A stretch of 43,765 nucleotides of DNA, taken from contig JAQCAB010000013.1 in the NCBI GenBank assembly GCA_027622375.1, positions 1 to 43,765 of the forward strand, written 5' to 3'. Under the pieces are notes generated by a model. That model ran no database searches and had not been told where the DNA came from. It worked only from the letters and a program-made list of their open reading frames with translations. Below are positions 18,607 through 34,716 of the stretch, one piece after another. Position 1 is the first letter of the stretch, and every line of letters starts with the position of its first letter. The position numbers were made by a program, and so were the translations under genes. The DNA comes from Bacteroidota bacterium (lineage in GTDB: Bacteria; Bacteroidota; Ignavibacteria; UBA10030; UBA8401).

Positions 18607-21399
18607 TTAATGTGCCTCAAACCAATTATCACCAACACCAACTTCAACTTCAATCGGCACTTTTAATGGGAGTGCATTTATCATTTCATCTGAAATAATA
18701 TTTTTAACTTTTTCTAATTCGTTTATTTCAACTTCAAAAACCAATTCATCATGAACTTGTAAAAGCATATTGCTTTTAACTTTTTGTTTTTTGAATGAAT
18801 TAAAAATATTTATCATTGCAATTTTAATCATATCGGCAGCAGTGCCTTGTATCGGCATATTGATAGCTTGTCGCTCAGCATTTTGTCTAATAAATGCATT
18901 CGCGCTTCTTATATCTGGAAAATATCTTCTTCTTTTTAAAAGTGTTGTAACGTAGCCATGTTGTTTTGCAAAAGAAATTGTATCAAAAATATACTGACGC
19001 ACTTTTGGAAATCTTTTATTATAAGTTGAAATAATTTCTTTGGCTTCATGGTGTGTAATTTCTAATCGATTTGATAAACCGAAAGCACCGATTCCATACA
19101 TAATTCCAAAGTTAACTTCCTTTGCTTTGCGGCGCATATCTTTTGTAACATCAATATTTTTTACATTAAAAATTTTTGCAGCTGTAGTTGTGTGAATATC
19201 TTCTTTTGCCATAAATGCTTCAATTAGTCCACTATCTTCAGAAATATGTGCCATTATTCTTAATTCAATTTGAGAATAATCTGCAGAAACGATTTTCATT
19301 CTATCGTTTGATGGGATAATTGCTTTTCTAATTTCGCGACCTAATTCAGTTCTAATTGGAATATTTTGCAAATTTGGTTCACTCGAAATTAATCTACCGG
19401 TTGATGCAATTGTTTGATTAAATGATGTATGAACTTTTCCTGTTCGGGGATTTATTAATTCGGGTAATGCATCAATATATGTTGATTTAAGTTTTGTAAT
19501 TTGACGATAATCAAGTAATTGAGTAATTATTGGATGAGCATTTTTTAATCTTTCTAAAACTGATACATCAGTTGAATATCCGCTTTTAGTTTTTTTTACT
19601 GGACTAAGTTTTAAAACATCAAATAAAATTGCAGCAAGTTGTTGAGTTGAATTTATATTAAATTCTTCGCCAGCAGTTTTATAAATTTCTTTTTTAATTT
19701 TTGATAATTCGTCTTCAAGTTTATCAGACATTTTATTTAAAAATTTTTTATCAATTGTAATTCCTTTTAATTCCATTGAAATCAAAACTTTAATTAATGG
19801 AAATTCAACTTTGTTGCACAAATCCAACATATCTTGTGCGGAAATTTTGTTATGCAAAACTTCATAAAGTTTAAAAGTTATATCTGCATCTTCGGCTGAA
19901 TAGTTTCCAATTTTTTCAAGTGGAATTGTTCTGAGATCAATATTTTTTTTCTCTTCGGTTAATTCTTCAAAAGTGATTGTTTGATAACCCAAATATTCTT
20001 TTGCAAGTGAATCTAAATTATGTTGACTATCAGAACGCGCTACATAAGATGCAACCATTGTATCAAATTCAATTCCTTTTATTTCAATTCCATAATTTGC
20101 AAGTACAATTGAATCGTATTTAATATTTTGCCCAATTTTTAAAATAGTGTGATCTTCAAAAATTGGTTTTAGTTCATTCAAAACAAATTCAAGATCTAAA
20201 TATTTAGATTTTTTATTCTCTTTTTTATCTTCAAACTCGAAACCAAATTTAAGTTCTTCGAAATCTTGATGTAAAGGAATATAAAATGCTTTTGAAGATT
20301 TAGTTGAAAATGAAATTCCAACTAATTGTGCGTTATGTGGATTTGCAGAAGTTGTTTCTGTATCAAAAACAAAACGATGAGAATTTTTTAATTCAGTTAA
20401 AAGTTTTTTAAGTTCATCTTTTTTGGTAATAAATAAATATTCATGTTTAGTGTTGTGAATATTTGATAAATCAGTCTCAGGAATTATAATTGGTTCAATT
20501 TCTGTAGTTTTAGAAATACTTTTTTCAGATGAAAGCCGAGTGTAAAAAGTTTTCATTTCTAAATCTTTAAAAAGGGACAATAATTTCGGAGTATTTTTTT
20601 CTTTAATTTTCAAATCATCAAGAATAATATTTAATGGCACATTAAAATGTGTTGTAACTAAATCCTTTGAAATAAAAGCAATTTCTTTATTATCCTTTAA
20701 TTTCTCACTTAGACTTTTTTTATCAATCTTTTCTAAATTTTTATAAATATTTTCAAGTGTTCCAAATTTCTGAATTAATGGCAACGCGGTTTTTGGACCA
20801 ACTCCTTGAACTCCCGGAACATTATCAGATGCATCACCAACAAGAGCTAGATAATCCGTGATGTGATGTGGTGGAATTCCAAATTTTAATTCGACACCTT
20901 TTTCATCAATAATTTCATCATTCTCATTAAATTTTCCAGGTTTATAAATTTTTGTTGATGGATTTATTAATTGCATTAAATCTTTATCACTTGTTACAAT
21001 AAAAATTTCAAGATTTGGTTGTTGAAAATCACGAGAAATTGTTGCAATTAAATCATCTGCTTCAAATCCTGCTTTTGACAAAATTGGGATATTAAATGCT
21101 TCGATTACTTGATTCAATTTTGGCAACATTGCAGATAAATCCTCTGGCATTTTTTGTCGATGAGCTTTATAATCTTTAAAACTTTTATGGCGAAAAGTTG
21201 GTTCTGCAGTATCAAATATTACTGAAATATAGTCTGGCTTTTGTGTGTTTAAAATCTTAAAAAGGAAATTTGTAAATCCATAAATTGAACTTGTGTTTTC
21301 ACCTTTAGAATTTATTAAAGGATTTTTTATTAAAGCAAAATATGCTCTATAAACTAATCCCATTCCATCTAAAAGAAAAAGTTTTTCCTGTTTTTCCAT
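18607..21399 (-). CDS. polA: DNA polymerase I with 5'-3' and 3'-5' exonuclease domains
   Basis: A 930-residue three-domain polymerase for Okazaki-fragment processing and repair. The 5' nuclease domain (1-290) shows D115 and D116 in GFEADD, D138 and D140 in SDKDL, and GDASDNVPGV. The 3'-5' proofreading domain has the complete DEDDy set: D346 and E348 (DTETT), D429, Y500 and D504, unlike many thermophile PolA proteins where it is lost. The polymerase domain has motif A D707 (DYSQIELRIMAH), the O-helix KAKEVNFGIMYG with F764 (the ddNTP-discriminating position), and motif C H883-D884-E885. It converges with frr at 6 nt with no clear terminator between them. The start ATG gives MEKQEKLFLLDGMGLVYRAY, typical of the family. 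Confidence 0.96.
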   Translation of the reverse strand: MEKQEKLFLLDGMGLVYRAYFALIKNPLINSKGENTSSIYGFTNFLFKILNTQKPDYISVIFDTAEPTFRHKSFKDYKAHRQKMPEDLSAMLPKLNQVIEAFNIPILSKAGFEADDLIATISRDFQQPNLEIFIVTSDKDLMQLINPSTKIYKPGKFNENDEIIDEKGVELKFGIPPHHITDYLALVGDASDNVPGVQGVGPKTALPLIQKFGTLENIYKNLEKIDKKSLSEKLKDNKEIAFISKDLVTTHFNVPLNIILDDLKIKEKNTPKLLSLFKDLEMKTFYTRLSSEKSISKTTEIEPIIIPETDLSNIHNTKHEYLFITKKDELKKLLTELKNSHRFVFDTETTSANPHNAQLVGISFSTKSSKAFYIPLHQDFEELKFGFEFEDKKENKKSKYLDLEFVLNELKPIFEDHTILKIGQNIKYDSIVLANYGIEIKGIEFDTMVASYVARSDSQHNLDSLAKEYLGYQTITFEELTEEKKNIDLRTIPLEKIGNYSAEDADITFKLYEVLHNKISAQDMLDLCNKVEFPLIKVLISMELKGITIDKKFLNKMSDKLEDELSKIKKEIYKTAGEEFNINSTQQLAAILFDVLKLSPVKKTKSGYSTDVSVLERLKNAHPIITQLLDYRQITKLKSTYIDALPELINPRTGKVHTSFNQTIASTGRLISSEPNLQNIPIRTELGREIRKAIIPSNDRMKIVSADYSQIELRIMAHISEDSGLIEAFMAKEDIHTTTAAKIFNVKNIDVTKDMRRKAKEVNFGIMYGIGAFGLSNRLEITHHEAKEIISTYNKRFPKVRQYIFDTISFAKQHGYVTTLLKRRRYFPDIRSANAFIRQNAERQAINMPIQGTAADMIKIAMINIFNSFKKQKVKSNMLLQVHDELVFEVEINELEKVKNIISDEMINALPLKVPIEVEVGVGDNWFEAH

Positions 21400-21461: not shown

Positions 21462-21492
21462 TTTGAAGAAAATATCTTTTTCCATATTTTTG
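21462..21492 (+). promoter_or_regulatory. Bacteroidota-type promoter of tRNA-Ser and the envelope genes
   Basis: TTTG at 21462-21465, a 19-nt spacer, then TATTTTTG at 21485-21492. This is an exact match to the Bacteroidota consensus TTTG-N19-TAnnTTTG. The tRNA starts at 21497, so transcription should begin at or within a few bases of the mature tRNA 5' end. No other convincing promoter lies between it and the envelope genes downstream. Confidence 0.75.
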
Positions 21493-21496
21493 GCTC

Positions 21497-21579
21497 GGAG
21501 AGCTGGCAGAACGGCTAATGCACCAGTCTTGAAAACTGGCGTCCCAACGGGCTTGGGGGTTCGAATCCCCCGCTCTCCG
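21497..21579 (+). tRNA. tRNA-Ser (anticodon UGA)
   Basis: An 83-nt class II tRNA. The acceptor stem is GGAGAGC with GCTCTCC and the discriminator is G21579. The anticodon stem CCAGT/ACTGG encloses the loop CTTGAAA, with anticodon TGA at 21530-21532, reading UCA and probably other UCN codons. A long variable arm follows (around CGTCCCAACGGGCTTGG), as required for tRNA-Ser. The T arm is GGGGGTTCGAATCCCCC. The 3' CCA is not encoded and must be added after processing. Confidence 0.96.
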
Positions 21580-21590
21580 CAGAAAAAATT

Positions 21591-23879
21591 ATGAAAATAA
21601 AATTAATTACTTATTTATTGGTGTGTATCTCACTTTTTAGCAACAATTTATTTGCTTTATCAGACACTTTAAGAGTAAAGCAAGATACATTATTCATTCA
21701 AAGATCAAACCAAACTTCAATTTCCGAAGATGAAGTTGCGGTAGATTCACTTTTAGAATTGGCTCGAGAATATTATAACGATGCAGTTGATTCTGAAAAT
21801 GAGAATGATTTAAATCGAAGTCAAAAATTATTTGAGTCGGCAATTAATATTTTGAACGACATTAATAATATTGATGACCAATCGCAAAACAAAGAATATC
21901 TCGATCTTGTAAATACAGTTATTGAAGCTTACAACCGTGATATTTCTCTTATCGATAAACTTCCAGTTGATGCACCAGCATATGTCTTAAGAGTAAAACT
22001 GAGTGAAGAAATTGAGCGGACGACGAATCCAACTGTACCAAATATTTCTAATGAACTTTCTACAAGTTCTGTTCCTTTAGAAGTTAATGAATATGTCAAT
22101 AGAAGTATTTCATATTTCATGACAAAAGGAAGAGAAGTTTTTGAAAAATGGATTTTCCGTTCTGGAAAATATTATCCAATGATGGAAAAAATATTTGAAG
22201 AGGAAGGGACGCCAAGAGAGATAATATACCTTTCGATGGTTGAAAGCGGATTAAATCCAAACGCAAGATCATGGGCTAGTGCAGTTGGAATGTGGCAATT
22301 TATTAAAGGAACTGGTTCACTTTACGGTTTAAGGTCAAATTATTGGTACGATGAAAGAAGAGATATTGAAAAATCAACACGAGCTGCTGCAAGACATTTA
22401 AATGATTTATATTCTAAATATAATGATTGGTATTTAGCTTTGGGTGCCTATAATGCAGGTGGTGGAAGAATAAATCGCGGAATTCGTATAAGTGGTTCTA
22501 AAAATTATTGGGAAATGAGAAAATATTTACCACGAGAAACTAGAAATTATGTTCCGCAATATATTGCAGTTACAATGATGGCGATGAAGCCAGAAATGTT
22601 TGGATTTCGAAATGTTGAAAAAGATTTACCGTTACAGTATGAAATTGTTACAATTGAAGATTGCGTTGATTTAAGTATTATTGCAGCTTGCGTAGGTTCA
22701 ACTCTTGCGGAAATTAAAAGTTTAAATCCGGAATTGTTAAGATGGTGCACGCCTCCAAATTTTCCGAACTATCAACTTAAAATTCCAATTGGTACAAAAG
22801 AAAAATTTTTAGCCGAATACCAATTAATTCCCGATGATAAAAAATTAAATTATGTTGTTCACAAAGTTAAAAGGGGAGAAACAGTTTCGAATATCGCAAG
22901 AAAATATGGACTTGTATCTTCTGTTATAATTGATGCGAATGGAATTTCAAAAAAAACGCGACTTTCAGTTGGTCGTGAACTTGCGATACCAATTCCAAAA
23001 AATGGATCAATTGTTCATAATGCAGTTGAAACAGAAATCGACAAACCTTCGATAGCTAAAACTATAAAACCCAAAAAGAAAACTACATTAAAGGATCGTG
23101 AAAAAATTTATGCAGCCGATGATAAAGTAAAAGTTCGATATAAAATTAAAAAGGGAGATTCTTTAGGAGAGATTGCAGAATTGTTTGATGTTAGAATGAG
23201 TGATTTAAGAAATTGGAACGATTTATCATACAGAAATAAAATTTTTGTAGGAACTTCTTTGGAAATTTGGGTACCGCAAAGTCAGAATAAATATTATAAA
23301 GATTTAGCATCAAAAGGAATTGAAAAAGAAATTAGTTCTATAAAAAATTCTTCATCAACAAATAATAAAACTCACAGAGTTAAACGTGGTGAAAATTTAG
23401 AATTAATTGCTGATAAATACGACTTGACCGTTGATGAATTGAAAGAACTAAATAATTTGAAAACAGACAAAATAATGTCTGGAACAAATCTTAAAATTAA
23501 ACAAGTTGTTGTAGAAAAGAATAAATCAAAACAAGCTCAACCGAAACAAGTTAAAAAAATAATTGCTTTGAAAAAGAACCAAGTTCAGATTAACCACATT
23601 GTAAAACTAGGTGAGACGCTTGGATTAATTGCAAGAAGATACAATGTTGAAGTTGGTGAAATTCAAAAATGGAATAATATTGCTTCTCAAAAAATTTTAT
23701 TAGCAGAAAGATTAAAAATTATTTTACCAAAATCCAAAGTAAAAACTCACACAGTTAAAAGAGGTGAATCACTTTGGTCAATTGCGAAAAAATTCAATGT
23801 TCCATTTAATGATTTGCAACAATGGAATAATTCGAAGAAAAACACGAACGTTGGAGATTTGATAATTATAATTCTTTAA
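21591..23879 (+). CDS. Membrane-bound lytic transglycosylase D-like protein with five LysM domains
   Basis: A 762-residue exported peptidoglycan-cleaving enzyme. Residues 1-22 are a signal peptide ([22 protein letters not shown]). A poorly conserved helical region follows, then a family-1 lytic transglycosylase (SLT) domain near residues 195-335: catalytic E218 in MVESGLNP, then [14 protein letters not shown] and [13 protein letters not shown]. Five LysM peptidoglycan-binding modules follow near 422-468, 515-561, 594-637, 668-712 and 719-762, more than the two of E. coli MltD. The ATG is 11 nt after the tRNA-Ser 3' end, leaving no room for its own promoter. The linkers are Lys-rich. It is the first protein gene of the envelope run. 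Confidence 0.9.
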
Positions 23880-23890
23880 AAGTATTTCCT

Positions 23891-26020
23891 GTGAATTCAA
23901 AAAATAATTTATCAAAAATATTTCTATTCACAGTTTTAATTCCATTTACATTATTATCTCAACAATATAACGAGAAAGACCAAAAAGCTACTTCAATTGG
24001 TCGTATTGGTCTTTCAGTTTCTTCAAACGGAGTAATCGGAAATTCTTTTCGTGGTCCATATGTTACAAAAGGTGAAAGTTCTTGTGAATATCCGATTGGT
24101 TCTGGAATTGAGCATTTATTTGATGGTGGAATTTGGATTGGCGCAAATGTTCGTGGACAAAAATTAGTTTCAACTTCCGCAGCGGGTGATGATGCAAACG
24201 GTTATGATGCAGGCAACGCAGGTTACGAATTTACCTCAACTAAATTATTAATTGAAAGATCCACAATTGAAAATGCATCAAATTATTCCCCACTTGCAAT
24301 TAGCCATCAAGATTTTGTTGCTGAATATTCTGATAGTTCTACAAGAATTCCAAATGGTGGACCCATAATTGATCAACATACAACACCTTTAAAAATAACT
24401 ATCAAACAAGAATCTTATGCTTGGAATTTTCCATTTGCAGATTATTTTGTTTTACTTAATTATAAAATCACAAATAAAAATTTAGATACTTTAAAAGATT
24501 TGTTTGTCGGACTTTGGGGAGATTTTATTGTTCGGAATGTAAAAATTACACCACCTCGAGGAACTGAATTTTTTAGTCATTCAGCTTTTGGTTACGATGA
24601 TGCTTCAAACTATTTTTATGCATACGATTATAATGGTGATCCGGGATTTACTGATAGCTACGTTGCTGTAAAAGTTATTGGTGGTGATTGGCGTGGTGGT
24701 TTAATCCAACCAAAAGCATTTTCACTTTGGTCATTAGATTTAAAAAAATATTTTACAGGAAGAGAAGTTCCATTTGATTCATTAAGAAGTTTCATCCAAT
24801 TTTGGGGATATAGAAGTACAGATTTGAATTTAGGTTCACCAAAAAATGATGCTGAACGATATTTAAAAATGAGTTCTTCAATTAATAAAACAATTTACGA
24901 TCAAGAAGTAAAAGATAAACCATCAAATTTACTTTCATTCATTTCAATTGGACCGATTCCTGAATTAGCTCCGAATGAAACAATGAGTCTTGTATTCGGA
25001 ATTGTTGCAGCTAAAAAATTTGGAGATCGTCCAAGCAGTGTTAATGATTCTACTTCTCGGATAACTTTGAGTGAAAATATTCAATGGGCGCAGCGAGCTT
25101 ATAATGGTGAAGACTCAAATGGAAATGGAAAACTTGATGATGGAGAAGATTACAACAACAATAATAAACTCGATAGATATCGTTTACCCGAGCCACCATC
25201 TCCTCCAAAAATTAAAATAATCCCTTCAAATAAAAAAGTTACAATTTATTGGGATAAGAATTCAGAAAATAGTATTGATCCAATTTCTCGCTTAAAAGAT
25301 TTTGAGGGTTATAAAATTTATGGATCTGTTTTAACAAATTTATCTTCCCAAAGTGCTTCAGATAAATTAGTTTTACTTGCTGAAATTGATTCAATCGGAA
25401 ATTCAGTTGGTATAAATAATGGTTTTAATTCAAAAGGGGCATTCACAAAATATTCTGAACCAGTAAAATTTGAAAATGACACAACAAAATATTTTTATAG
25501 TTTTGTTTCCGAGAATTTATTAAATGGTTGGCAATATAGTTTTAGTGTAACTTCATTTGATGAAGGGGATGAAATTCGTGGCATTCCTTCTCTTGAAACA
25601 AGTCGTGAACAAAATTTATTGCGTGTTTATCCCGGTGTTGTCGCAAATAATAATTTTGAAAGTGGTGAACCATATGTTTATCCAAATCCGTTTTACGGAA
25701 ATGCAAAATGGGATGGTAAAACAGAACGTGAAAAGAAAATTTATTTTGCTAACCTTCCACTTAATTCTGAGGTAAAAATTTATACTTCCTCTGGCAGAAT
25801 TGTTGATTCGTTCAATCATAATGGTTCAAATTATCGTGGAGAAGATGTTCGTTGGTTTCAACAATCTGGAAAAGAAAATGTGCAACTATCTGGCGGTGAA
25901 CATGCTTGGGATTTAATTTCAAAATATGATCAAAGTTTGGCTACAGGTTTGTATATTTACACTGTAAAAGATTTAGAAACTGGTAAAATTCAAACAGGAA
26001 AATTTGTTATTATTAAATAA
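23891..26020 (+). CDS. Secreted protein with calcium-loop-like repeat, FN3-like region and T9SS-type C-terminal domain
   Basis: A 709-residue exported protein. The GTG start, 11 nt after the previous stop, gives a signal peptide (FLFTVLIPFTLLSQ). Residues about 30-400 are a large domain I cannot name, with many aromatic and Gly residues (for example GPYVTKGESSCEYP, HLFDGGIWIGANV). Near 408-428 is an EF-hand or dockerin-like run DSNGNGKLDDGEDYNNNNK, a likely calcium loop. A fibronectin-III-like region follows (KKVTIYWDKNSEN, FEGYKIYGS). The last 85 residues start with PYVYPNPFYG and end GLYIYTVKDLETGKIQTGKF, the pattern of a T9SS sorting domain. It is probably carried to the surface by the type IX system. 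Function unknown. Confidence 0.7.
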   Translation: MNSKNNLSKIFLFTVLIPFTLLSQQYNEKDQKATSIGRIGLSVSSNGVIGNSFRGPYVTKGESSCEYPIGSGIEHLFDGGIWIGANVRGQKLVSTSAAGDDANGYDAGNAGYEFTSTKLLIERSTIENASNYSPLAISHQDFVAEYSDSSTRIPNGGPIIDQHTTPLKITIKQESYAWNFPFADYFVLLNYKITNKNLDTLKDLFVGLWGDFIVRNVKITPPRGTEFFSHSAFGYDDASNYFYAYDYNGDPGFTDSYVAVKVIGGDWRGGLIQPKAFSLWSLDLKKYFTGREVPFDSLRSFIQFWGYRSTDLNLGSPKNDAERYLKMSSSINKTIYDQEVKDKPSNLLSFISIGPIPELAPNETMSLVFGIVAAKKFGDRPSSVNDSTSRITLSENIQWAQRAYNGEDSNGNGKLDDGEDYNNNNKLDRYRLPEPPSPPKIKIIPSNKKVTIYWDKNSENSIDPISRLKDFEGYKIYGSVLTNLSSQSASDKLVLLAEIDSIGNSVGINNGFNSKGAFTKYSEPVKFENDTTKYFYSFVSENLLNGWQYSFSVTSFDEGDEIRGIPSLETSREQNLLRVYPGVVANNNFESGEPYVYPNPFYGNAKWDGKTEREKKIYFANLPLNSEVKIYTSSGRIVDSFNHNGSNYRGEDVRWFQQSGKENVQLSGGEHAWDLISKYDQSLATGLYIYTVKDLETGKIQTGKFVIIK

Positions 26021-26036
26021 TTAAAAAGGAGAAGCA

Positions 26037-28082
26037 ATGAGAACTAAAATTACAATTTTTATTTTAACAATAATTTCTTTTGTAAATATTGAAGCACAAT
26101 ATTCAAAACGGAGTATAAAACAAATCCAATTTGTTTCTGATAGTTTGCTGAACTTAACTCCTTCCCAAGATGCGAGTCCATATAAAGACAGCACAGTTTG
26201 GGTCAAAGGTGTAGTTGTTACACCAGTTCGTGTTGAAGGTGGAAGACATCAATTTTATACTGGTGATCGTTTCAGATTTGTTATGAAAAATCCATCTGAA
26301 ACCGACTATAATTATATATCAGTAGTTGCCACAGACTCAGTATGGTTTAGAGATAATATTGGAATTGATTTACTTGTTCCGGGCGATTCGGTGGAAGTAT
26401 TAGGAGTAGTTACTGAATACAGAGGTTTAACACAACTTGAAGTTATAAAACAAGCTGGTTGTTTAAATTTACTTGGAACTTCAACTGCAAATTTAAATTC
26501 AACAACAGTTGGTTTGGATCAATTTTTTAATCAAACAACAATTCTTAAAAAAACTTCTGAAAAATATGAAAGTGGGTTTATAAAACTTTTAAATTTAACA
26601 GTCATTAGTACCAACGTTGCAGAATTTTCTGTTGCAGATAGTTTAGGAAATAAAATTACTGTTGATGATCAGTCAAATTTAATTTATGGAACAATTCCAC
26701 CACCAGCAGGAACAAAAATTGCAAGTGTTCAAGGATTTATTTTTACAAATTCAGCGAGTGCTTGGACAATAAATCCCCGAAGAACAAGTGACTATACAAT
26801 TTCTGGTGCAGCACCAACAATAATAAATGTAACAAGATCAGATTCTTTTCCAACTTCAACTTCAGCTGTTACAATTAAATCAAAAATTTATATTACTGGT
26901 TTAACAATTACATCAGCGGAGCTTCATTATAAAATTCAAAACGAATCACCAAATAAAATAATTATGTCAACAAGTGGTGATTCAATTTATTCTGGAATAA
27001 TTCCCGCTTCATCAAAAGACACAGCATTTGTTTCATATTATATTTTAGCAAAAGGATCAAATACAAACATTACAACTTTCCCAACAGATACAGTACGAGA
27101 AAAATTATTTTATTTAACTTTAAATCGTCCACTTACAATTCAAGATGTTCAATTCAATCCATTTGGTGGAGGATCAAGTTATACAAATATGAAATTAACT
27201 TTAAAAGGGATTGCCACAACTGATAGAAAAATTTATGGTGCAATCAACATACAGAATGGAAAAGGGAAGTGGAGTGGAATCCGCATTCGTGCTTCAAATG
27301 ATTCTTTGATAAAGCGTGGTGATGAAGTTCAAGCATCGGGGCTTATTCGCGAAATAAATGGTTTAACAATTCTTGACTCAGCAAAAGTGACAATTTTGTC
27401 ATCTAATAACCCTTCGCCAGAGGCAACAAAAGTTAAAACATCGATTGTTTTGACTGGCTCAAATGATGCCGAACAATATGAATCGGTTTTGATAAAATTG
27501 GACAGCGTTTATGTCGTTAATTTAAATGAAGATTCGCCGAGCAATCAAAATTTTGGTGAGTTTGGAATTAGTGAGAATAAAAATAATAGTGTTGGACTTC
27601 GTATTGATGATTATAGTACAAAGTTGCCATTTACAAATGATACTGCCCGAGCTGCCGGGAAAGGAAAAATTCAACTTAAAAAAGGAGATTATTTCGCTTC
27701 GGTGATTGCACCACTTGATTATTCATTTAATAACTTTAAATTAATTCCGCGTGATAGTGCTGATTTTGTTGGATATAAAACTACAACTTTTGTAATACTT
27801 GAAAATAATTTTATACCTAAAATTTTAAAACTTGATCAAAATTTTCCAAATCCATTTAATCCTTCAACAACAATCAGATATCATTTGCCATTAAAAGGTG
27901 AAGTAAAAATTACAATTCATAATTTATTGGGACAAAATGTTCAAGAATTAGTGAACTTAATTCAAGAAGCTGGTAGTTACGAAGTTAAATTTAATGCAAA
28001 CAAGTTGCCAAGTGGAATTTATTTTGTAAAACTAGATCAGAATAATAAAATCTTGACTAAAAAAATTCTGTTCTTAAAATAA
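26037..28082 (+). CDS. Secreted OB-fold protein with T9SS sorting domain
   Basis: A 681-residue exported protein with a clear SD (AAGGAG, 26026-26031, 5 nt before the ATG) and a signal peptide (MRTKITIFILTIISFVNIEAQ). Two segments look like OB-fold modules of the DUF5689/YhcR kind: VWVKGVVVTPVRVEGGRHQF (near residue 55) and LKGIATTDRKIYGAINIQNG (near residue 390), the latter followed by GDEVQASGLIREINGLTIL. A third similar strand set begins near 465 (NDAEQYESVLIKLDSV). The C-terminus is a textbook Ignavibacteria-style T9SS domain: LDQNFPNPFNPSTTIRYHLP, then LPSGIYFVKL and KILFLK. Such OB modules are often found in extracellular nucleases, but no nuclease motif is visible here. Confidence 0.78.
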   Translation: MRTKITIFILTIISFVNIEAQYSKRSIKQIQFVSDSLLNLTPSQDASPYKDSTVWVKGVVVTPVRVEGGRHQFYTGDRFRFVMKNPSETDYNYISVVATDSVWFRDNIGIDLLVPGDSVEVLGVVTEYRGLTQLEVIKQAGCLNLLGTSTANLNSTTVGLDQFFNQTTILKKTSEKYESGFIKLLNLTVISTNVAEFSVADSLGNKITVDDQSNLIYGTIPPPAGTKIASVQGFIFTNSASAWTINPRRTSDYTISGAAPTIINVTRSDSFPTSTSAVTIKSKIYITGLTITSAELHYKIQNESPNKIIMSTSGDSIYSGIIPASSKDTAFVSYYILAKGSNTNITTFPTDTVREKLFYLTLNRPLTIQDVQFNPFGGGSSYTNMKLTLKGIATTDRKIYGAINIQNGKGKWSGIRIRASNDSLIKRGDEVQASGLIREINGLTILDSAKVTILSSNNPSPEATKVKTSIVLTGSNDAEQYESVLIKLDSVYVVNLNEDSPSNQNFGEFGISENKNNSVGLRIDDYSTKLPFTNDTARAAGKGKIQLKKGDYFASVIAPLDYSFNNFKLIPRDSADFVGYKTTTFVILENNFIPKILKLDQNFPNPFNPSTTIRYHLPLKGEVKITIHNLLGQNVQELVNLIQEAGSYEVKFNANKLPSGIYFVKLDQNNKILTKKILFLK

Positions 28083-28092
28083 ATTTTTAAAA

Positions 28093-29730
28093 TTGATTAA
28101 TAAAAAAAATACTTGGAAGGCTTTTTCCATTTTATTTTTTTTAAGTTGTCAGCAACCAATTGATATTGAATTAAAAAAAAACAATCCGCCACAAACACAA
28201 CTTTGGGCTGATTCAATTTCAAAAATTGTTACAAGTACAATAAAACTTTATTGGTCTGGTGCAGATCCAGATGGATTTGTAAAAGGCTATTTTTTAACTA
28301 CAAATTCTAAAAATTGGACTTGGACTACTTCAACTGAATCAACTTTAACTTTAATGTTGGGGAATAAATCTTTAGACACATCAAATATTAAAGTTAGCGC
28401 AGCTGATAATGAGGGGAATGGAATTTGGGATTCTAAAATTGAATTTGGAAATATTTTATTTGGAAGCGAGCCATTTGTTGATGCCAATAAAAATGGAATT
28501 TATGATTTCGGAGAATCCTTTACAGATATTGGTTTAATTGATGAAACCCCTGCACAAATTAAATTAGTTGTCAAAAATTCTCCACCATCAGTTAGTTTTA
28601 ATATTTCATCAACAATTCCCCAAATAACTTTACCAGTTGCAACATTTGATTTTAAAGGAACTGATCCTGATGGAGATGCAACTATCAAAAATTATTTTGT
28701 TGCATTAAATGATACTTTAAATTGGACTCAACTTCCAACCGCAACTTCGTTAATTACAATAGTTGCAGATTTAAGTGATACATCAAAAAATATTGTCACT
28801 GCAAAAATATTAATTGGTAAAAAACTTGAAGATTTAGGAATTACAATTCCAAATTTTAAATTAAACAATAATAACAGATTGTACATTTATTGCCAAGATG
28901 GAACTGGAGCAAAAAGTAAAATTAAAAATATGCCTGATTCATCAAAAACATGGTATGTTCAAAAACCAAAAGGAAGAAAAAAATTATTATTGGTCGATGA
29001 ATTTGGTATTTCTTCCCCCGATCCAGATCAAGTTTATTATAATATTTTAAATTTAAGTTTAGATAAAAATGGAAATACTTTTTCAGATTATGATGTAGTC
29101 GAATTATCAACAAACCCGATTCCAAAAACAATTGCCAATCTTATGTTAGTTGAAACTTTTAAAATGTATAAAATTGTTTTTTGGTATGGCAAAGTTGTAA
29201 ATTTTGATTTAGCTCAACAAATAATCCCTGAATATGTTAATAAAGGAGGAAATGTACTTTTATCAACTGGTTTCCAAAATTTAAGTGTAGCTGGAATTGA
29301 TCCATCACAACTTAGTTTGGATTTTGCACCAATTGATAGTTTGATTACTTATTATAAAAGTGATACAATTTCTATAAGTGGATTTATCCCGCGAGTTTAT
29401 TCTCAATCTAAAATATTAGCAGTGGATTCAACTTCTCAAAATAAATTTCCCCAACTTATTTTTGATCGAACAGCATTATTCGGAACTTATGCTTTGCAAA
29501 ATGGATTTAATGAAAATGTTCTTTATAGATTTGATTCTGCAAAAGCAACAAATCCAAATAATTCTGAGGAAAAATGGATTGGCAAACCAGCTGTAATTAC
29601 ACAATCTCAAAATAAAAAAATAATATTTTCTTCAATCCCGCTGCATTTGTGTAATTCACTTGATTCTCAAAATAATCCGAGATTAAAATTATTTTTTGAA
29701 AGAATTTTTAAGGATGAATTTGGACAATAA
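28093..29730 (+). CDS. Exported lipoprotein-like protein with Ig/FN3-like repeats, unknown function
   Basis: A 545-residue protein that starts at TTG (28093), 10 nt after the upstream stop. The N-terminus KAFSILFFLSCQQP suggests a signal peptide ending in a lipid-modified Cys, though the lipobox FLSC is not ideal. Two related repeats are visible: WSGADPDGFVKGYFLT (near residue 55) and KGTDPDGDATIKNYFVALND (near residue 195), the D-P-D-G pattern of Ig/FN3-like surface domains. A D-x-N-x-N-G loop (DANKNGIYDFGESF, near residue 130) may bind calcium. From residue about 290 a different domain starts with RKKLLLVDEFG and contains YVNKGGNVLLSTG, similar in flavour to class-I glutaminase-amidotransferase-like folds. 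No function is assigned. Confidence 0.65.
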   Translation: MINKKNTWKAFSILFFLSCQQPIDIELKKNNPPQTQLWADSISKIVTSTIKLYWSGADPDGFVKGYFLTTNSKNWTWTTSTESTLTLMLGNKSLDTSNIKVSAADNEGNGIWDSKIEFGNILFGSEPFVDANKNGIYDFGESFTDIGLIDETPAQIKLVVKNSPPSVSFNISSTIPQITLPVATFDFKGTDPDGDATIKNYFVALNDTLNWTQLPTATSLITIVADLSDTSKNIVTAKILIGKKLEDLGITIPNFKLNNNNRLYIYCQDGTGAKSKIKNMPDSSKTWYVQKPKGRKKLLLVDEFGISSPDPDQVYYNILNLSLDKNGNTFSDYDVVELSTNPIPKTIANLMLVETFKMYKIVFWYGKVVNFDLAQQIIPEYVNKGGNVLLSTGFQNLSVAGIDPSQLSLDFAPIDSLITYYKSDTISISGFIPRVYSQSKILAVDSTSQNKFPQLIFDRTALFGTYALQNGFNENVLYRFDSAKATNPNNSEEKWIGKPAVITQSQNKKIIFSSIPLHLCNSLDSQNNPRLKLFFERIFKDEFGQ

Positions 29731-32518
29731 AATTATCAAAATATTATTTTTCGGATTTATTTTTGTGATAAATATTTTTTCACAAGAAAAAGGGAAACTC
29801 GAAGGTAAAGTTTTTGATTCTAAAACTAACGAACCATTAATTGGTGTTTCAATTAAATTAAAAGGAACTTATTACGGAGCAGCAACTAATATTGATGGAA
29901 GTTTTTCAATTCAAAATATAAATGTTGGCGAATATATAATCGAAGCTAACTCAATTGGTTATAAAACTTCGCAATATACTGGAATAAAAATTTTTGCGGA
30001 TAAATCTACTTCGCTTGATATAAAATTAATTGAAACAATTTTATCACTTGATAAAGAAGTTGTTGTTATCGGCGAAAAACCTCTTTTTGATATTGAAGAA
30101 GCATCAAGCATTCGCACAATTACAGCGGATGAAATTCGCGCAGCACCAGTTATGGGAATTCAGGATATTGTTTCAAAGCAAGTTGGTGTAACAAAAACTG
30201 CAGAAGGAATTTATATTCGTGGCGCGAGAAGTTATGAAACCAGTTATTTGGTTGATGGAGTTTCGGCAAAAGATCCACTCGCTGGCACAGGTTTTGGTAT
30301 TGAAGTAAATCCACTTTCGATGAAGGAAATTGAAGTTATTACTGGAGGAATTGGCGCTGAATATAGTTCAACAGCTGGTGTAATTTCTGTTACAACTTTA
30401 AGTGGAACAGATGAATTTCAATTTTCATCATCCTATAAAAGAGATAATATAAATTCTAATTCAAAAAATTTATCCAATTTTAATCAAGATCAGATCGATT
30501 TAAGTTTTAGCGGGCCAATTTTTTCAGATAAATTTACATTTTATTCTTCATTTTCAGGATTTGTTTCGGATGAATTTACACAATCACCAGCGAATCAATT
30601 ATTTTCTTCAATCGCGAATGGAAAAAATTTTGCCCCACGACAAGATAATAGATTGAATGGTTTAATAAAATTAACTTTTCAAGAATCGGGCTCGAAATAT
30701 GAAGTAACTTATCGCAGATCTATAAAAATAAATCAGAATACAAGAATGTTGCAAATGGGAGGCAATGATGTTGTCTTAAGTCCAGGTTATCAATATGCAT
30801 TTGCACTACAACCTGATAATGCTAACACATATACACATGATGCAAATTTATTAAGTTTTAAATATTCAGTTTCGATTGACGCGAAAAGTTTTTTTGATTT
30901 TCAAGTAAGTAGATTGTTCACAAGACTCAGAGCTGATGCAAATGGAAGAGAATTTCGCCCAGATTCATTTACAACAATTTTTGATCCGCAAAGTATAATT
31001 ACAAATCCAATTAGTTATTGGAAGTATTCACTACAAGATAGTGTGATGTATGTAATTATAAGCGATCCAACAATTGCAGGTTTATACAATAATGGTGGTA
31101 TAGCAACTTTGTGGCACGATCACTTTGCAGAAGAAATAACTTTAAAAGGAGATTACTCGCTTCAACTAAATAACGAAAATAAATTAAAAACTGGAGTTGA
31201 AATAAAATTTCAAGAATATCAATGGATTGATGTTAACAGACCTTGGATTGGTGCGCCAATAAAAGTTGGAGATCTTTCCCGCTCACTTGGTGAATCATTT
31301 GATATTTGGCATGTGTGGCCATCTCAAGGTGGCGCTTATATTCAAGACCAAATTAATTACAACGGATTAATTGCATTTATCGGTTTGAGATTTCAATATT
31401 GGATGCCTGGAAAATTTATAGAAAATGTTGTTGGTGATTCTGAAAGTATTTCTAAAAAAATATTAACAGATAAAATTGTAGATGAATTTTATGCTTCAAC
31501 TTTTTCTATTTTTGATCGAAGAATAAAAGGGAGATTAATGCCTCGCTTAAAAGTTTCATTCCCTGTTAGCGATAATCAAGTTTTATTTTTTAATTATGGA
31601 CATTCTGTTGATTGGCCAAATGCTTATCAAGTTTATTCTGGTTTGGATATAACTCGAATTGATCGATCACCACTTTCAAGGATTGGAAATCCCGCGCTTG
31701 AACCCGAAACAACTGTTGAATATGAGATAGGTTTAAAAAATCAATTCAATATTAATGATGTTCTAACTTTAACTGCTTTTAGTAAAGATAAATTTGATTA
31801 CGTAGTCAGAAGGTATTTGTATGAACTTGATAAAACAACTTATATAAATGAAGATTACGCCAGAATAAATGGTATTGAATTTACATATTTGAGAAGATTT
31901 TCTCAAAATTGGCAAACTACTTTTATGTTTTCATATCAAATTGCAAAAGGGAAAAGTAATTCTGCTGAAGCTTCTTTTTTTAGATTTACTGATGAACAAA
32001 CTACTAAAGAAAAATATTTAGCATGGGATAGACCATTACAAATTAGATTGACTTCAAATTTAAGATTAGATGATGAATTCGAATTCCCAGAATTTTTACA
32101 ATTTTTATACTCCACTAGAATTTTTACTCAAGCAAACTTTCAATCTGGCAAGCGTTACACGCCGTATATCAAAACTGGTTATGATTATAATTTAAAAAGA
32201 GATTTGTATCGAGAAGATTTAAGTCGCGAATATCAATCAATCGGAGAAAATTGGTTTTGGGTTGATTTAAGTATTCAAAAAAATTTGGAATTCTTAAAAA
32301 GAGAAATAATGTTTTCTTTGGAGGTGACAAATCTTTTTAACAATAAAAATTCTACAATTATAAATCCATTAACAGGAAGAGCATACGAGTTGGGAGATTT
32401 AACACCATTTCGTGATCCAACAAAACCTCATCCTGAAGATACAGGTTTGCCACCATTTGATCCTGCAAGATATTTAGAACAGCGTCATATTGTTTTTGGA
32501 TTGACTTTAAAATTATAA
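29714..32518 (+). CDS. TonB-dependent outer-membrane receptor with carboxypeptidase-like N-terminal domain
   Basis: A 934-residue outer-membrane barrel. The ATG at 29714 is preferred over an upstream in-frame start at 29696, because it gives a standard signal peptide (residues 1-24, ending FSQ). It overlaps the preceding gene by 17 nt. A carboxypeptidase-regulatory-like beta-sandwich lies at 28-105 (GKVFDSKTNEPLIGVSIKLK, IGYKTSQYTGI). The plug follows at about 130-228 (IYIRGARSYETSYLVDGVSA; GGIGAEYSSTAGVISVTT), then a 22-strand-size barrel to the end (RHIVFGLTLKL). It resembles SusC-type receptors, but no SusD partner is next to it. The cargo is unknown; polymer, peptide or metal chelate uptake, or an export role, all remain open. 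Confidence 0.88.
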   Translation: MNLDNKIIKILFFGFIFVINIFSQEKGKLEGKVFDSKTNEPLIGVSIKLKGTYYGAATNIDGSFSIQNINVGEYIIEANSIGYKTSQYTGIKIFADKSTSLDIKLIETILSLDKEVVVIGEKPLFDIEEASSIRTITADEIRAAPVMGIQDIVSKQVGVTKTAEGIYIRGARSYETSYLVDGVSAKDPLAGTGFGIEVNPLSMKEIEVITGGIGAEYSSTAGVISVTTLSGTDEFQFSSSYKRDNINSNSKNLSNFNQDQIDLSFSGPIFSDKFTFYSSFSGFVSDEFTQSPANQLFSSIANGKNFAPRQDNRLNGLIKLTFQESGSKYEVTYRRSIKINQNTRMLQMGGNDVVLSPGYQYAFALQPDNANTYTHDANLLSFKYSVSIDAKSFFDFQVSRLFTRLRADANGREFRPDSFTTIFDPQSIITNPISYWKYSLQDSVMYVIISDPTIAGLYNNGGIATLWHDHFAEEITLKGDYSLQLNNENKLKTGVEIKFQEYQWIDVNRPWIGAPIKVGDLSRSLGESFDIWHVWPSQGGAYIQDQINYNGLIAFIGLRFQYWMPGKFIENVVGDSESISKKILTDKIVDEFYASTFSIFDRRIKGRLMPRLKVSFPVSDNQVLFFNYGHSVDWPNAYQVYSGLDITRIDRSPLSRIGNPALEPETTVEYEIGLKNQFNINDVLTLTAFSKDKFDYVVRRYLYELDKTTYINEDYARINGIEFTYLRRFSQNWQTTFMFSYQIAKGKSNSAEASFFRFTDEQTTKEKYLAWDRPLQIRLTSNLRLDDEFEFPEFLQFLYSTRIFTQANFQSGKRYTPYIKTGYDYNLKRDLYREDLSREYQSIGENWFWVDLSIQKNLEFLKREIMFSLEVTNLFNNKNSTIINPLTGRAYELGDLTPFRDPTKPHPEDTGLPPFDPARYLEQRHIVFGLTLKL

Positions 32519-33487
32519 ATGAAAAAATATTTTTTAATAATTTTTATTTTCTTTCAAAATATTTTAAATGCTCAAAATATTTTCCCAATTTTTGGAAGTC
32601 AAAGAACAGGGACTTCTGCATTTACATTTTTGCAAATTAGTGCTTCGCCTCGCGGATTGGCAATGAGTGATGCATTTAATTCTTTAAGTGATGACGCATC
32701 GTCACTTCATTACAATCCTGCAAGAGCGGTTTTATTTCACAGAAGTCAAACTATGGTTTCGCACGGATTATGGTTTGCCGGTTTACAACATAATTACTCT
32801 GCATTTATTTATAAATATTCTGAGAATGAAGCAATTGGGCTTGCGATAAATTCATTAATGTCAGAACAAATGGAAAAAAGAACCGAATTTTTGCCTGAAG
32901 GAACAGGCGAAAAATTTATTTTTAATGATTTCTCTTTGGCTTTAACTTTCTCAAAAAGATTAACTGATCAATTTAGTTTTGGAATTACAAGCCGTTACAT
33001 AACTGAAACTTTGGCTGAATATAAAATGGATAATTTGCTTTTTGATTTGGGAATTTCGTATGATCTTGGAAATGATAAATCGCAATTTGCAATTACTTAT
33101 TCAAACTTTGGTGGCTCATCAAAACCAAAGGGAACAAATAAAAACTCTGAAAAAGAATTTGAAGAATTTTTGCCTCCATCAATTTTTGCAATTTCGTTTG
33201 CTAATAAATTGATAAAGGAAGATGATTATAATTTAATTACAGTTGTGCAATTAAATCATCCTAATGATAATTCAGAAAATTTTGCAATTGGTGCAGAGCT
33301 TGAAATTCATAAGATGTTTTATTTACGCAGCGGTTTTAGAATAAATTATAAAGAGCAAAATTTTCCATCTTTTGGAGTTGGATTTGTAATTCCGTATGAA
33401 ATATTTTTTGGCAAATTTGATTATGGGGTTGCAAAATATAACGAGCTTGGTTTAACACATAACTTTTCATTAAATATTATTTTGTGA
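32519..33487 (+). CDS. PorV/PorQ-like outer-membrane beta-barrel protein
   Basis: A 322-residue exported protein with signal peptide MKKYFLIIFIFFQNILNAQ. The early segment FTFLQISASPRGLAMSDAFN, followed by SLSDDASSLHYNPA, is typical of PorV/PorQ and UPF0164 proteins: FadL-like barrels, some of which shuttle T9SS cargo to the attachment machine. The rest shows alternating beta-strand pattern and ends NELGLTHNFSLNIIL, with a terminal hydrophobic strand. The ATG directly follows the receptor stop with no gap, and its TGA overlaps the next GTG start. Its presence beside T9SS-tagged genes supports a surface-assembly role, but a lipid-transport barrel is also possible. Confidence 0.75.
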   Translation: MKKYFLIIFIFFQNILNAQNIFPIFGSQRTGTSAFTFLQISASPRGLAMSDAFNSLSDDASSLHYNPARAVLFHRSQTMVSHGLWFAGLQHNYSAFIYKYSENEAIGLAINSLMSEQMEKRTEFLPEGTGEKFIFNDFSLALTFSKRLTDQFSFGITSRYITETLAEYKMDNLLFDLGISYDLGNDKSQFAITYSNFGGSSKPKGTNKNSEKEFEEFLPPSIFAISFANKLIKEDDYNLITVVQLNHPNDNSENFAIGAELEIHKMFYLRSGFRINYKEQNFPSFGVGFVIPYEIFFGKFDYGVAKYNELGLTHNFSLNIIL

Positions 33488-34716
33488 AAAAAGCAATTCT
33501 AAAATACATTTTTATAATTCCGATTTTTATTTTTGGTTGTGATTCAATGCTCGGCATTAAAGAACCAAATATTGCGATTGAATTTCCTGAGCTTCCACAA
33601 ACTGATTTGAAGTCAATTGAGTTTATACAATTATTACCTGTCTGGACGGGATTTAATCAACCTGAAGATGTATTAATTGGATTTGATGATTTAGTTTATA
33701 TTGCTGATACAAAAAATAATAGAGTTCTTCAGCTTGATGTAAATGGAAAAATTTTAGGATCAATAAATATTCCTGAACCAACTTCAATCGCGCAAGATCG
33801 GAGATTAGATTTATTGGTAATTGGAAAATATGATTCAACATTTGGAGCAATAAAATTAAAATTATCTTGTTTGTACAGAATTAAACTAGTAAAAAATAAT
33901 CATCAACTTTCAAATTCAACTGCGCAACCTGTCATAATTCATCCCGGTTATGTTCTTGGTAGAAATCTTAAAACAAGTGATACTTCAGTTTCATTTTCTG
34001 GTGTGGCTGTCTTGAGTGATAATCAATATTTTATTTCTCGAAGAGGAAATGAAAATTTATCAATCACGCAAGCTGGTGGTCCAGATAATAATGTACTTTG
34101 GTTTGATAAAAATGATAAATTAGTAACTCCACTAACTGCATATTTAAATCCACTCGGTAGTGGAAAAGCATCAAGTTTTGGAATTACAAATATTGCAACT
34201 TATGCAACACCACCACAACGCTCAAATGTGGATGAGCGAAAACATTTTTTAATCACATTAAATGGTGAAACAAATTTTCGGGTTCAAGGAATGCGATACT
34301 CATCAGGTAGAGAAGATGTTGCGTTTATGCCAGATCCTCAACTTGAAAGCATTGATACAACAATTGGTAAAAGATTTTTGTACGATTCTGATCCAACTGA
34401 TGGATTATTAAAATCTGGCTTTCAAAATCCCGAAGAAATTATTTATACTGCTGATAGAGGTTATTTAGTAGTTGTAGATAGCGGAACAGATAGTTTGTAT
34501 CTTTTTACTTCAAGTGGAGTTGAAGGGATTTTGCCCCCGACATATTCAACTGAAAGGAAAAATATTTTGGTCTCTTTTGGTGGATTTGGTAGCGGAAACA
34601 AACAATTTAACAATCCTATGGGAATTGCATATTTTCAATCAGATAGAATTTTTTATGTTGCAGATACAGGCAATAACAGAATTGTGAGATTTAAATTATC
34701 AACGGATTTTAAATAA
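33484..34716 (+). CDS. NHL-repeat lipoprotein
   Basis: A 410-residue protein starting at GTG, with a 4-nt GTGA overlap with the upstream stop. A good lipobox, FIFGC (Cys near residue 19), marks it as a lipoprotein. NHL-type beta-propeller blades are visible at FNQPEDVLIGFDDLVYIADT with KNNRVLQLD (residues about 57-85) and again at the end, FNNPMGIAYF with YVADTGNNRIVRF. A middle blade-like piece is TADRGYLVVVDSGTDSLYLF. NHL propellers are binding scaffolds. It ends the envelope run. The 67-nt gap after it holds only a weak A/T hairpin and a poor promoter candidate for ctpA. Confidence 0.78.
   Translation: MKKAILKYIFIIPIFIFGCDSMLGIKEPNIAIEFPELPQTDLKSIEFIQLLPVWTGFNQPEDVLIGFDDLVYIADTKNNRVLQLDVNGKILGSINIPEPTSIAQDRRLDLLVIGKYDSTFGAIKLKLSCLYRIKLVKNNHQLSNSTAQPVIIHPGYVLGRNLKTSDTSVSFSGVAVLSDNQYFISRRGNENLSITQAGGPDNNVLWFDKNDKLVTPLTAYLNPLGSGKASSFGITNIATYATPPQRSNVDERKHFLITLNGETNFRVQGMRYSSGREDVAFMPDPQLESIDTTIGKRFLYDSDPTDGLLKSGFQNPEEIIYTADRGYLVVVDSGTDSLYLFTSSGVEGILPPTYSTERKNILVSFGGFGSGNKQFNNPMGIAYFQSDRIFYVADTGNNRIVRFKLSTDFK

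Follow-up and report, generated by a model that had tools for sequence, protein, structure and literature searches.

A gene for tRNA-Ser(UGA), the MltD-like lytic transglycosylase gene that follows it and, probably, six further genes appear to form one transcription unit; we think it quite likely that this unit is read from the tRNA promoter and that it arose by loss of a spacer. The locus (Table 1) lies in a 43,765-nt stretch of DNA, called the window here, which is one contig of a fragmented assembly of 48 contigs. In the course of events that we propose, a spacer between the tRNA and mltD was lost in a genus with reduced genomes; in related genera, a terminator for the tRNA and small genes can be found in the corresponding spacer, which presumably also carries a promoter for mltD. 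RNA polymerase would start at the 5′ end of the tRNA, or 1-2 nt from it, and read through into the protein genes. A nuclease, possibly RNase E/G, would then cut in the A-rich 11-nt junction, and the freed mRNA would be translated from a short leader. The observation itself is confirmed. The tRNA-mRNA unit is likely real as well, and probably a product of genome reduction, in an arrangement of a known and mostly ordinary type.

Table 1. Features of the polA-tRNA-Ser(UGA) region and of the gene cluster downstream. Coordinates are positions in the window; G001 is the second genome of the genus.
Feature	Coordinates	Strand	Basis
polA, divergent neighbour	18607-21399	-	Pfam DNA_pol_A and exonuclease domains
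Predicted Bacteroidota-type promoter, TTTG-N19-TATTTTTG	21462-21492	+	Exact match; 9/10 positions shared with the corresponding site in G001
tRNA-Ser(UGA), CCA not encoded	21497-21579	+	ARAGORN, Rfam; 3′ end read
Junction CAGAAAAAATT (11 nt), tRNA trailer and leader of first protein gene	21580-21590	+	Identical in G001
MltD-like lytic transglycosylase, SLT and five LysM stretches	21591-23879	+	Pfam PF01464 and LysM
g3, conserved protein, probably exported, weak T9SS-type tail	23891-26020	+	TIGR04183 and PorZ-tail, below cut-off
g4, exported protein, T9SS type A sorting domain	26037-28082	+	PF18962 and TIGR04183 above cut-off
g5, probable lipoprotein, Ig/FnIII-like domains and ThuA-like part	28093-29730	+	Conserved Cys19; model, Foldseek
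g6, TonB-dependent receptor, carboxypeptidase-regulatory-like domain	29714-32518	+	PF00593, PF07715, PF13715
g7, PorV/PorQ-family outer-membrane protein	32519-33487	+	NF033709 above cut-off
g8, NHL-repeat protein, probable lipoprotein	33484-34716	+	PF01436; lipobox-like N terminus read from sequence

The predicted promoter ahead of tRNA-Ser(UGA)

ARAGORN called the tRNA-Ser(UGA) gene at 21497-21580, and the Rfam model RF00005 matched 21497-21579 (57.6 bits; gathering score 29). The first-pass annotation had reported an exact promoter box 4 nt ahead of this gene, and both box and tRNA were recovered when we measured them again: TTTG lies at 21462-21465 and, after N19, the −7 box lies at 21485-21492. 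Both parts agree exactly with the consensus of the primary sigma factor of Bacteroidota, which has TAnnTTTG at −7 and TTTG near −33 (PMC7366714). As the −7 box has been placed at −12 to −5 (PMC9723704), with which the 4-nt spacing is compatible, the predicted start falls on or close to the first nucleotide of the tRNA, and the precursor would have almost no 5′ leader. The divergent polA gene starts at 21399 on the opposite strand, which limits the space for the two promoters to 97 bp.

The motif alone was rejected as proof of a promoter, since it occurs at chance level in the window (30% GC), with one match of the full two-box motif against 3.0 expected and 82 TAnnTTTG sites against 82.5 expected. 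It is the position before a tRNA, rather than the motif itself, that makes the box meaningful. The probability of a full match at most 25 nt from one given tRNA is about 9 × 10−4. Among the 38 tRNAs of this genome, taken from stretches fetched from it, TAnnTTTG is present at most 25 nt upstream of 14, where about 0.9 would be expected (Poisson P about 2 × 10−12), and the full two-box motif precedes three (P about 6 × 10−6).

It had also been claimed that no second good promoter is present. Scans for the consensus of the primary sigma factor agreed with this: the best site in the tRNA and leader scored 6/10 compared to 10/10 for the upstream box, which is below most random 100-nt windows, and the sites ahead of the later cluster genes scored 7-8/10, the same as random windows. 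From these scans, the tRNA promoter appears to be the only credible promoter ahead of the transglycosylase gene.

The junction between the tRNA and the transglycosylase gene

The tRNA and the transglycosylase gene lie on the same strand, and no intrinsic terminator was found in the 11-nt junction between them; none would fit there, consistent with the earlier annotation. With no separate promoter for the protein gene in the consensus scan either, the locus has two sequence features of a mixed tRNA-mRNA unit. Because the upstream box is exact and neither a terminator nor a second promoter-like site follows it, tandem transcription of the tRNA and the transglycosylase gene is very likely, and transcription through all seven protein genes is plausible. 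The first-pass proposal that the tRNA heads a seven-gene operon stands as far as the promoter, the missing terminator and the same layout in a second genome are concerned, and goes beyond this evidence in positing a transcript that spans all seven genes and an output that follows growth rate.

Together with the leader that would be released, the junction is short and largely unpaired. The leader of the mltD-like gene has no Shine-Dalgarno sequence and carries A at −3 and −6, and the freed mRNA would be translated from it in this form. In Flavobacterium, A at −3 favours initiation (PMC6847099). Excision of the tRNA might in addition gate translation of the transglycosylase, as the fold of the unprocessed tRNA, 11 nt from the AUG, may hinder ribosome loading, although we regard such gating as improbable. 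If it did occur, the output of the envelope genes would reflect maturation of the tRNA in addition to its transcription, and would do so in an organism seemingly without canonical RNase Z.

Processing enzymes

The genome encodes RNase P RNA, Rho and RNase E/G. Canonical RNase Z (TIGR02651) had no match above the cut-off in any of 41 genomes (this one and 40 relatives), and RNase Z as the obvious nuclease for the junction is thus not supported. This genome has other metallo-beta-lactamase proteins, but they do not resemble RNase Z. A metallo-beta-lactamase protein of ~300 aa in the relatives was also considered and rejected, as its motif, judged by eye, is unlike that of RNase Z. Without the canonical enzyme, the cut in the junction may fall to RNase E/G or to another enzyme. 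Rho-dependent loss of read-through is possible.

Most of the tRNAs read in three of the 41 genomes nevertheless have no encoded CCA. Nearly all of the tRNA genes read (loci L001-L008 and L081-L158), ~36 of 38 in the genome studied here, carry a C immediately behind the discriminator base although CCA is seldom encoded in full; it looks as though its first C had been kept.

The seven-gene surface cluster

The transglycosylase has an SLT domain followed by five LysM stretches, as in MltD. Its score against the NCBIfam equivalog NF008050 was 243 bits with a cut-off of 508, and we therefore name it MltD-like only. The six genes behind it had been described as exported or outer-membrane genes, which holds for most of them. 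The structure model of g5 is of moderate confidence and had Foldseek matches, and the models of g3 and g5 point to general surface-protein folds only. The cluster from mltD through g3, g4, g5, the TonB receptor and PorV/Q to the NHL gene keeps its order in at least four families, as a unit without known function, and g3 is ~41% identical across the families that share it.

Measuring the gaps again gave the values of the first-pass annotation: 11 nt from the tRNA to ATG 21591, followed by 11 (GTG 23891), 16 (ATG 26037), 10 (TTG 28093), −17 (ATG 29714), 0 (ATG 32519) and −4 nt (GTG 33484). Gaps this short are the norm here, as 22 of the 31 same-strand gaps in the window are at most 20 nt and the coding density of the window is 95%. 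The short gaps might accordingly reflect genome compaction only. In that case, transcription of mltD and of the genes behind it would start chiefly at promoters within the preceding genes, either weak or non-canonical ones, and the tRNA promoter would add little because Rho stops most of the read-through. The presence of Rho is consistent with this, as is the fact that promoters of alternative sigma factors would escape a consensus scan. However, the tRNA and leader contain no promoter-like site, the GC-rich body of the tRNA leaves little room for one, and translation would begin 11 nt past the tRNA, which tends to protect against Rho. We consider this reading to be rather unlikely.

Comparison with relatives

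The only other genome of the genus that we compared (G001) has the same order from polA through the tRNA and mltD to the NHL gene, on a 166-kb contig. Its junction consists of exactly the same 11 nt, and its mltD protein is 95% identical. Its promoter reads TTTG-N19-TATTTTTA, where the −7 box ends in A and not in G. Although the window comes from a fragmented assembly, this second occurrence of both order and junction led us to reject an assembly artefact joining the tRNA and mltD, the chance of which is negligible.

Outside the genus, three other genera of the family contributed six loci (L045, L047, L049, L053, L061 and L064) in which tRNA-Ser(UGA) lies upstream of mltD on the same strand, at a distance of 0.4-1.65 kb. 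In three of these six, a hairpin with a U-rich tail follows soon after the tRNA. Two of the loci were checked for intervening genes, which were crcB and a DUF190 gene in L045 and a GNAT acetyltransferase gene in L049. In the other loci examined, from the family and from other families of the order, no tRNA-Ser(UGA) was found upstream of mltD in the stretches searched, some of which end early at contig ends. A scan of named genomes with mltD yielded only four relatives. The first-pass annotation had suggested following the synteny of tRNA-Ser and mltD across genomes, and this comparison does not show an ancient link. As the tRNA is upstream only within family f1, and there in just some of the genera, at a distance that varies and with mltD abutted in one genus only, we rejected an ancient functional link between the two genes.

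The order from mltD to the NHL gene is conserved in families f1, f2, f5 and f6, where the gap between mltD and g3 is 68-300 nt compared to 11 nt here, and the last two cluster genes are close together everywhere examined. Judging by this distribution, the order of the seven genes is old and widely shared, although the gaps are larger elsewhere, and the layout in which the tRNA abuts mltD is young. The genome is 1.73 Mb in size, compared to about 3-4.5 Mb in other genera of the family. Genome reduction with loss of the spacer seems to best explain the fusion of tRNA and mltD, and it is the simplest explanation; that the spacer was lost, rather than never present in this lineage, is an argument from parsimony, made without a tree.

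The gaps in relatives also bear on the extent of the unit. Their g5-g8 genes are tightly spaced, but mostly large gaps separate mltD from g3 and g3 from g4, suggesting that the ancestral units may have been separate. It is thus possible, if doubtful, that two or more units exist here too, with mltD (and perhaps g3 and g4) transcribed together with the tRNA from its promoter, and g5-g8 from an internal promoter. Against this, the internal sites score no better than random windows, and the gaps are too short for a promoter that would lie outside coding sequence.

Alternatively, the junction may be a selected control device that ties envelope synthesis to tRNA supply, and not an accident of deletion. 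The identical junction in two genomes whose mltD proteins share 95% identity would be in line with selection, and a tRNA promoter could plausibly follow growth rate, so that a coupling of envelope output to growth rate, while putative, is a reasonable expectation. Yet the flanking sequences are nearly identical too, the linkage is absent in most relatives, and the genus has further tRNAs directly ahead of unrelated genes, among them glmS and batA. As only two genomes of the genus are available, conservation of the junction may be due to common descent alone and does not show selection. A selected device seems improbable.

Read in this way, the locus allows one to trace how gene control can be rewired when a genome shrinks: a surface-gene cluster apparently came under a tRNA promoter once a spacer and a terminator had vanished. 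If the joint transcript is true, it would offer a simple system for studying the regulatory consequences of accidental coupling, as well as the cutting of tRNAs from mRNAs where canonical RNase Z seems to be missing.

Other tRNA genes and known mixed units

The first-pass annotation had set the layout against the usual case, in which tRNAs have their own terminator or are processed from tRNA clusters; the premise that the layout is odd is a weak one in this genome. A simple scan found an intrinsic terminator after two of the 38 tRNAs here; the count was 0 of 27 for G001 and 11 of 34 for a larger genome (G004). The contrast is only indicative since the fixed energy threshold is biased against AT-rich genomes. 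A same-strand ORF begins at most 35 nt after eight of the 38 tRNAs. In both genomes of the genus, tRNA-Ala(CGC) lies 9 nt ahead of a glmS-like gene and tRNA-Leu(UAG) lies 15-16 nt ahead of a BatA-like gene. In 26 of 30 genomes of the order, tRNA-Gln(UUG) directly precedes rpsE; it is absent in the four f6 loci (L094, L118, L156 and L171-L200 were the loci used). Wherever both flanks could be read, it lies between rplR and rpsE in the spc ribosomal operon, and excision of a tRNA from an mRNA is thus probably routine in this group. Together with the failure to find canonical RNase Z, this tRNA-Gln may interest specialists more than the mltD junction.

Mixed tRNA-mRNA units are known from E. coli, as in thrU-tyrU-glyT-thrT-tufB, and a passage in PMC3985628 cites secG-leuU as one. 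In these units as in the tRNA-Ser/mltD locus, tRNA and protein gene share one strand and are not separated by a terminator, and release of the mRNA requires a cut in a tRNA precursor. Unlike in the E. coli units, one tRNA on its own opens a surface-gene cluster here as its first cistron, with the start codon 11 nt away, and the joint transcript is a predicted one. The locus also resembles tRNA punctuation in animal mitochondria, where, in a compacted genome, tRNAs abut protein genes with almost no spacer and their excision frees the mRNAs. However, mitochondria use RNase P and RNase Z, whereas canonical RNase Z was not found here and only some tRNAs are placed in this way. A familiar bacterial arrangement is that of the tuf/tRNA-Trp/secE and tRNA-Thr-rpmG regions, in which tRNAs are likewise followed by close protein genes on the same strand. 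Both regions also occur in this genome (gene names read from the sequence). While they are widespread, the mltD junction was found only in this genus among the genomes examined. Our literature search on tRNA-mRNA operons and leaderless tRNAs returned little that was specific.

Other serine tRNAs also occur near the cluster, with anticodon CGA at L055, L066, L072 and L077 and GCU at L068, L074, L075 and L076. The CGA tRNA follows mltD in f3, and the GCU tRNA follows the NHL gene or mltD in f2 and f5. As both their positions and their anticodons differ, we rejected them as instances of the same device. In one relative (G010, L045:3180-3363), the 5′ part of the tRNA recurs as partial copies in tandem just upstream of tRNA-Ser(UGA).
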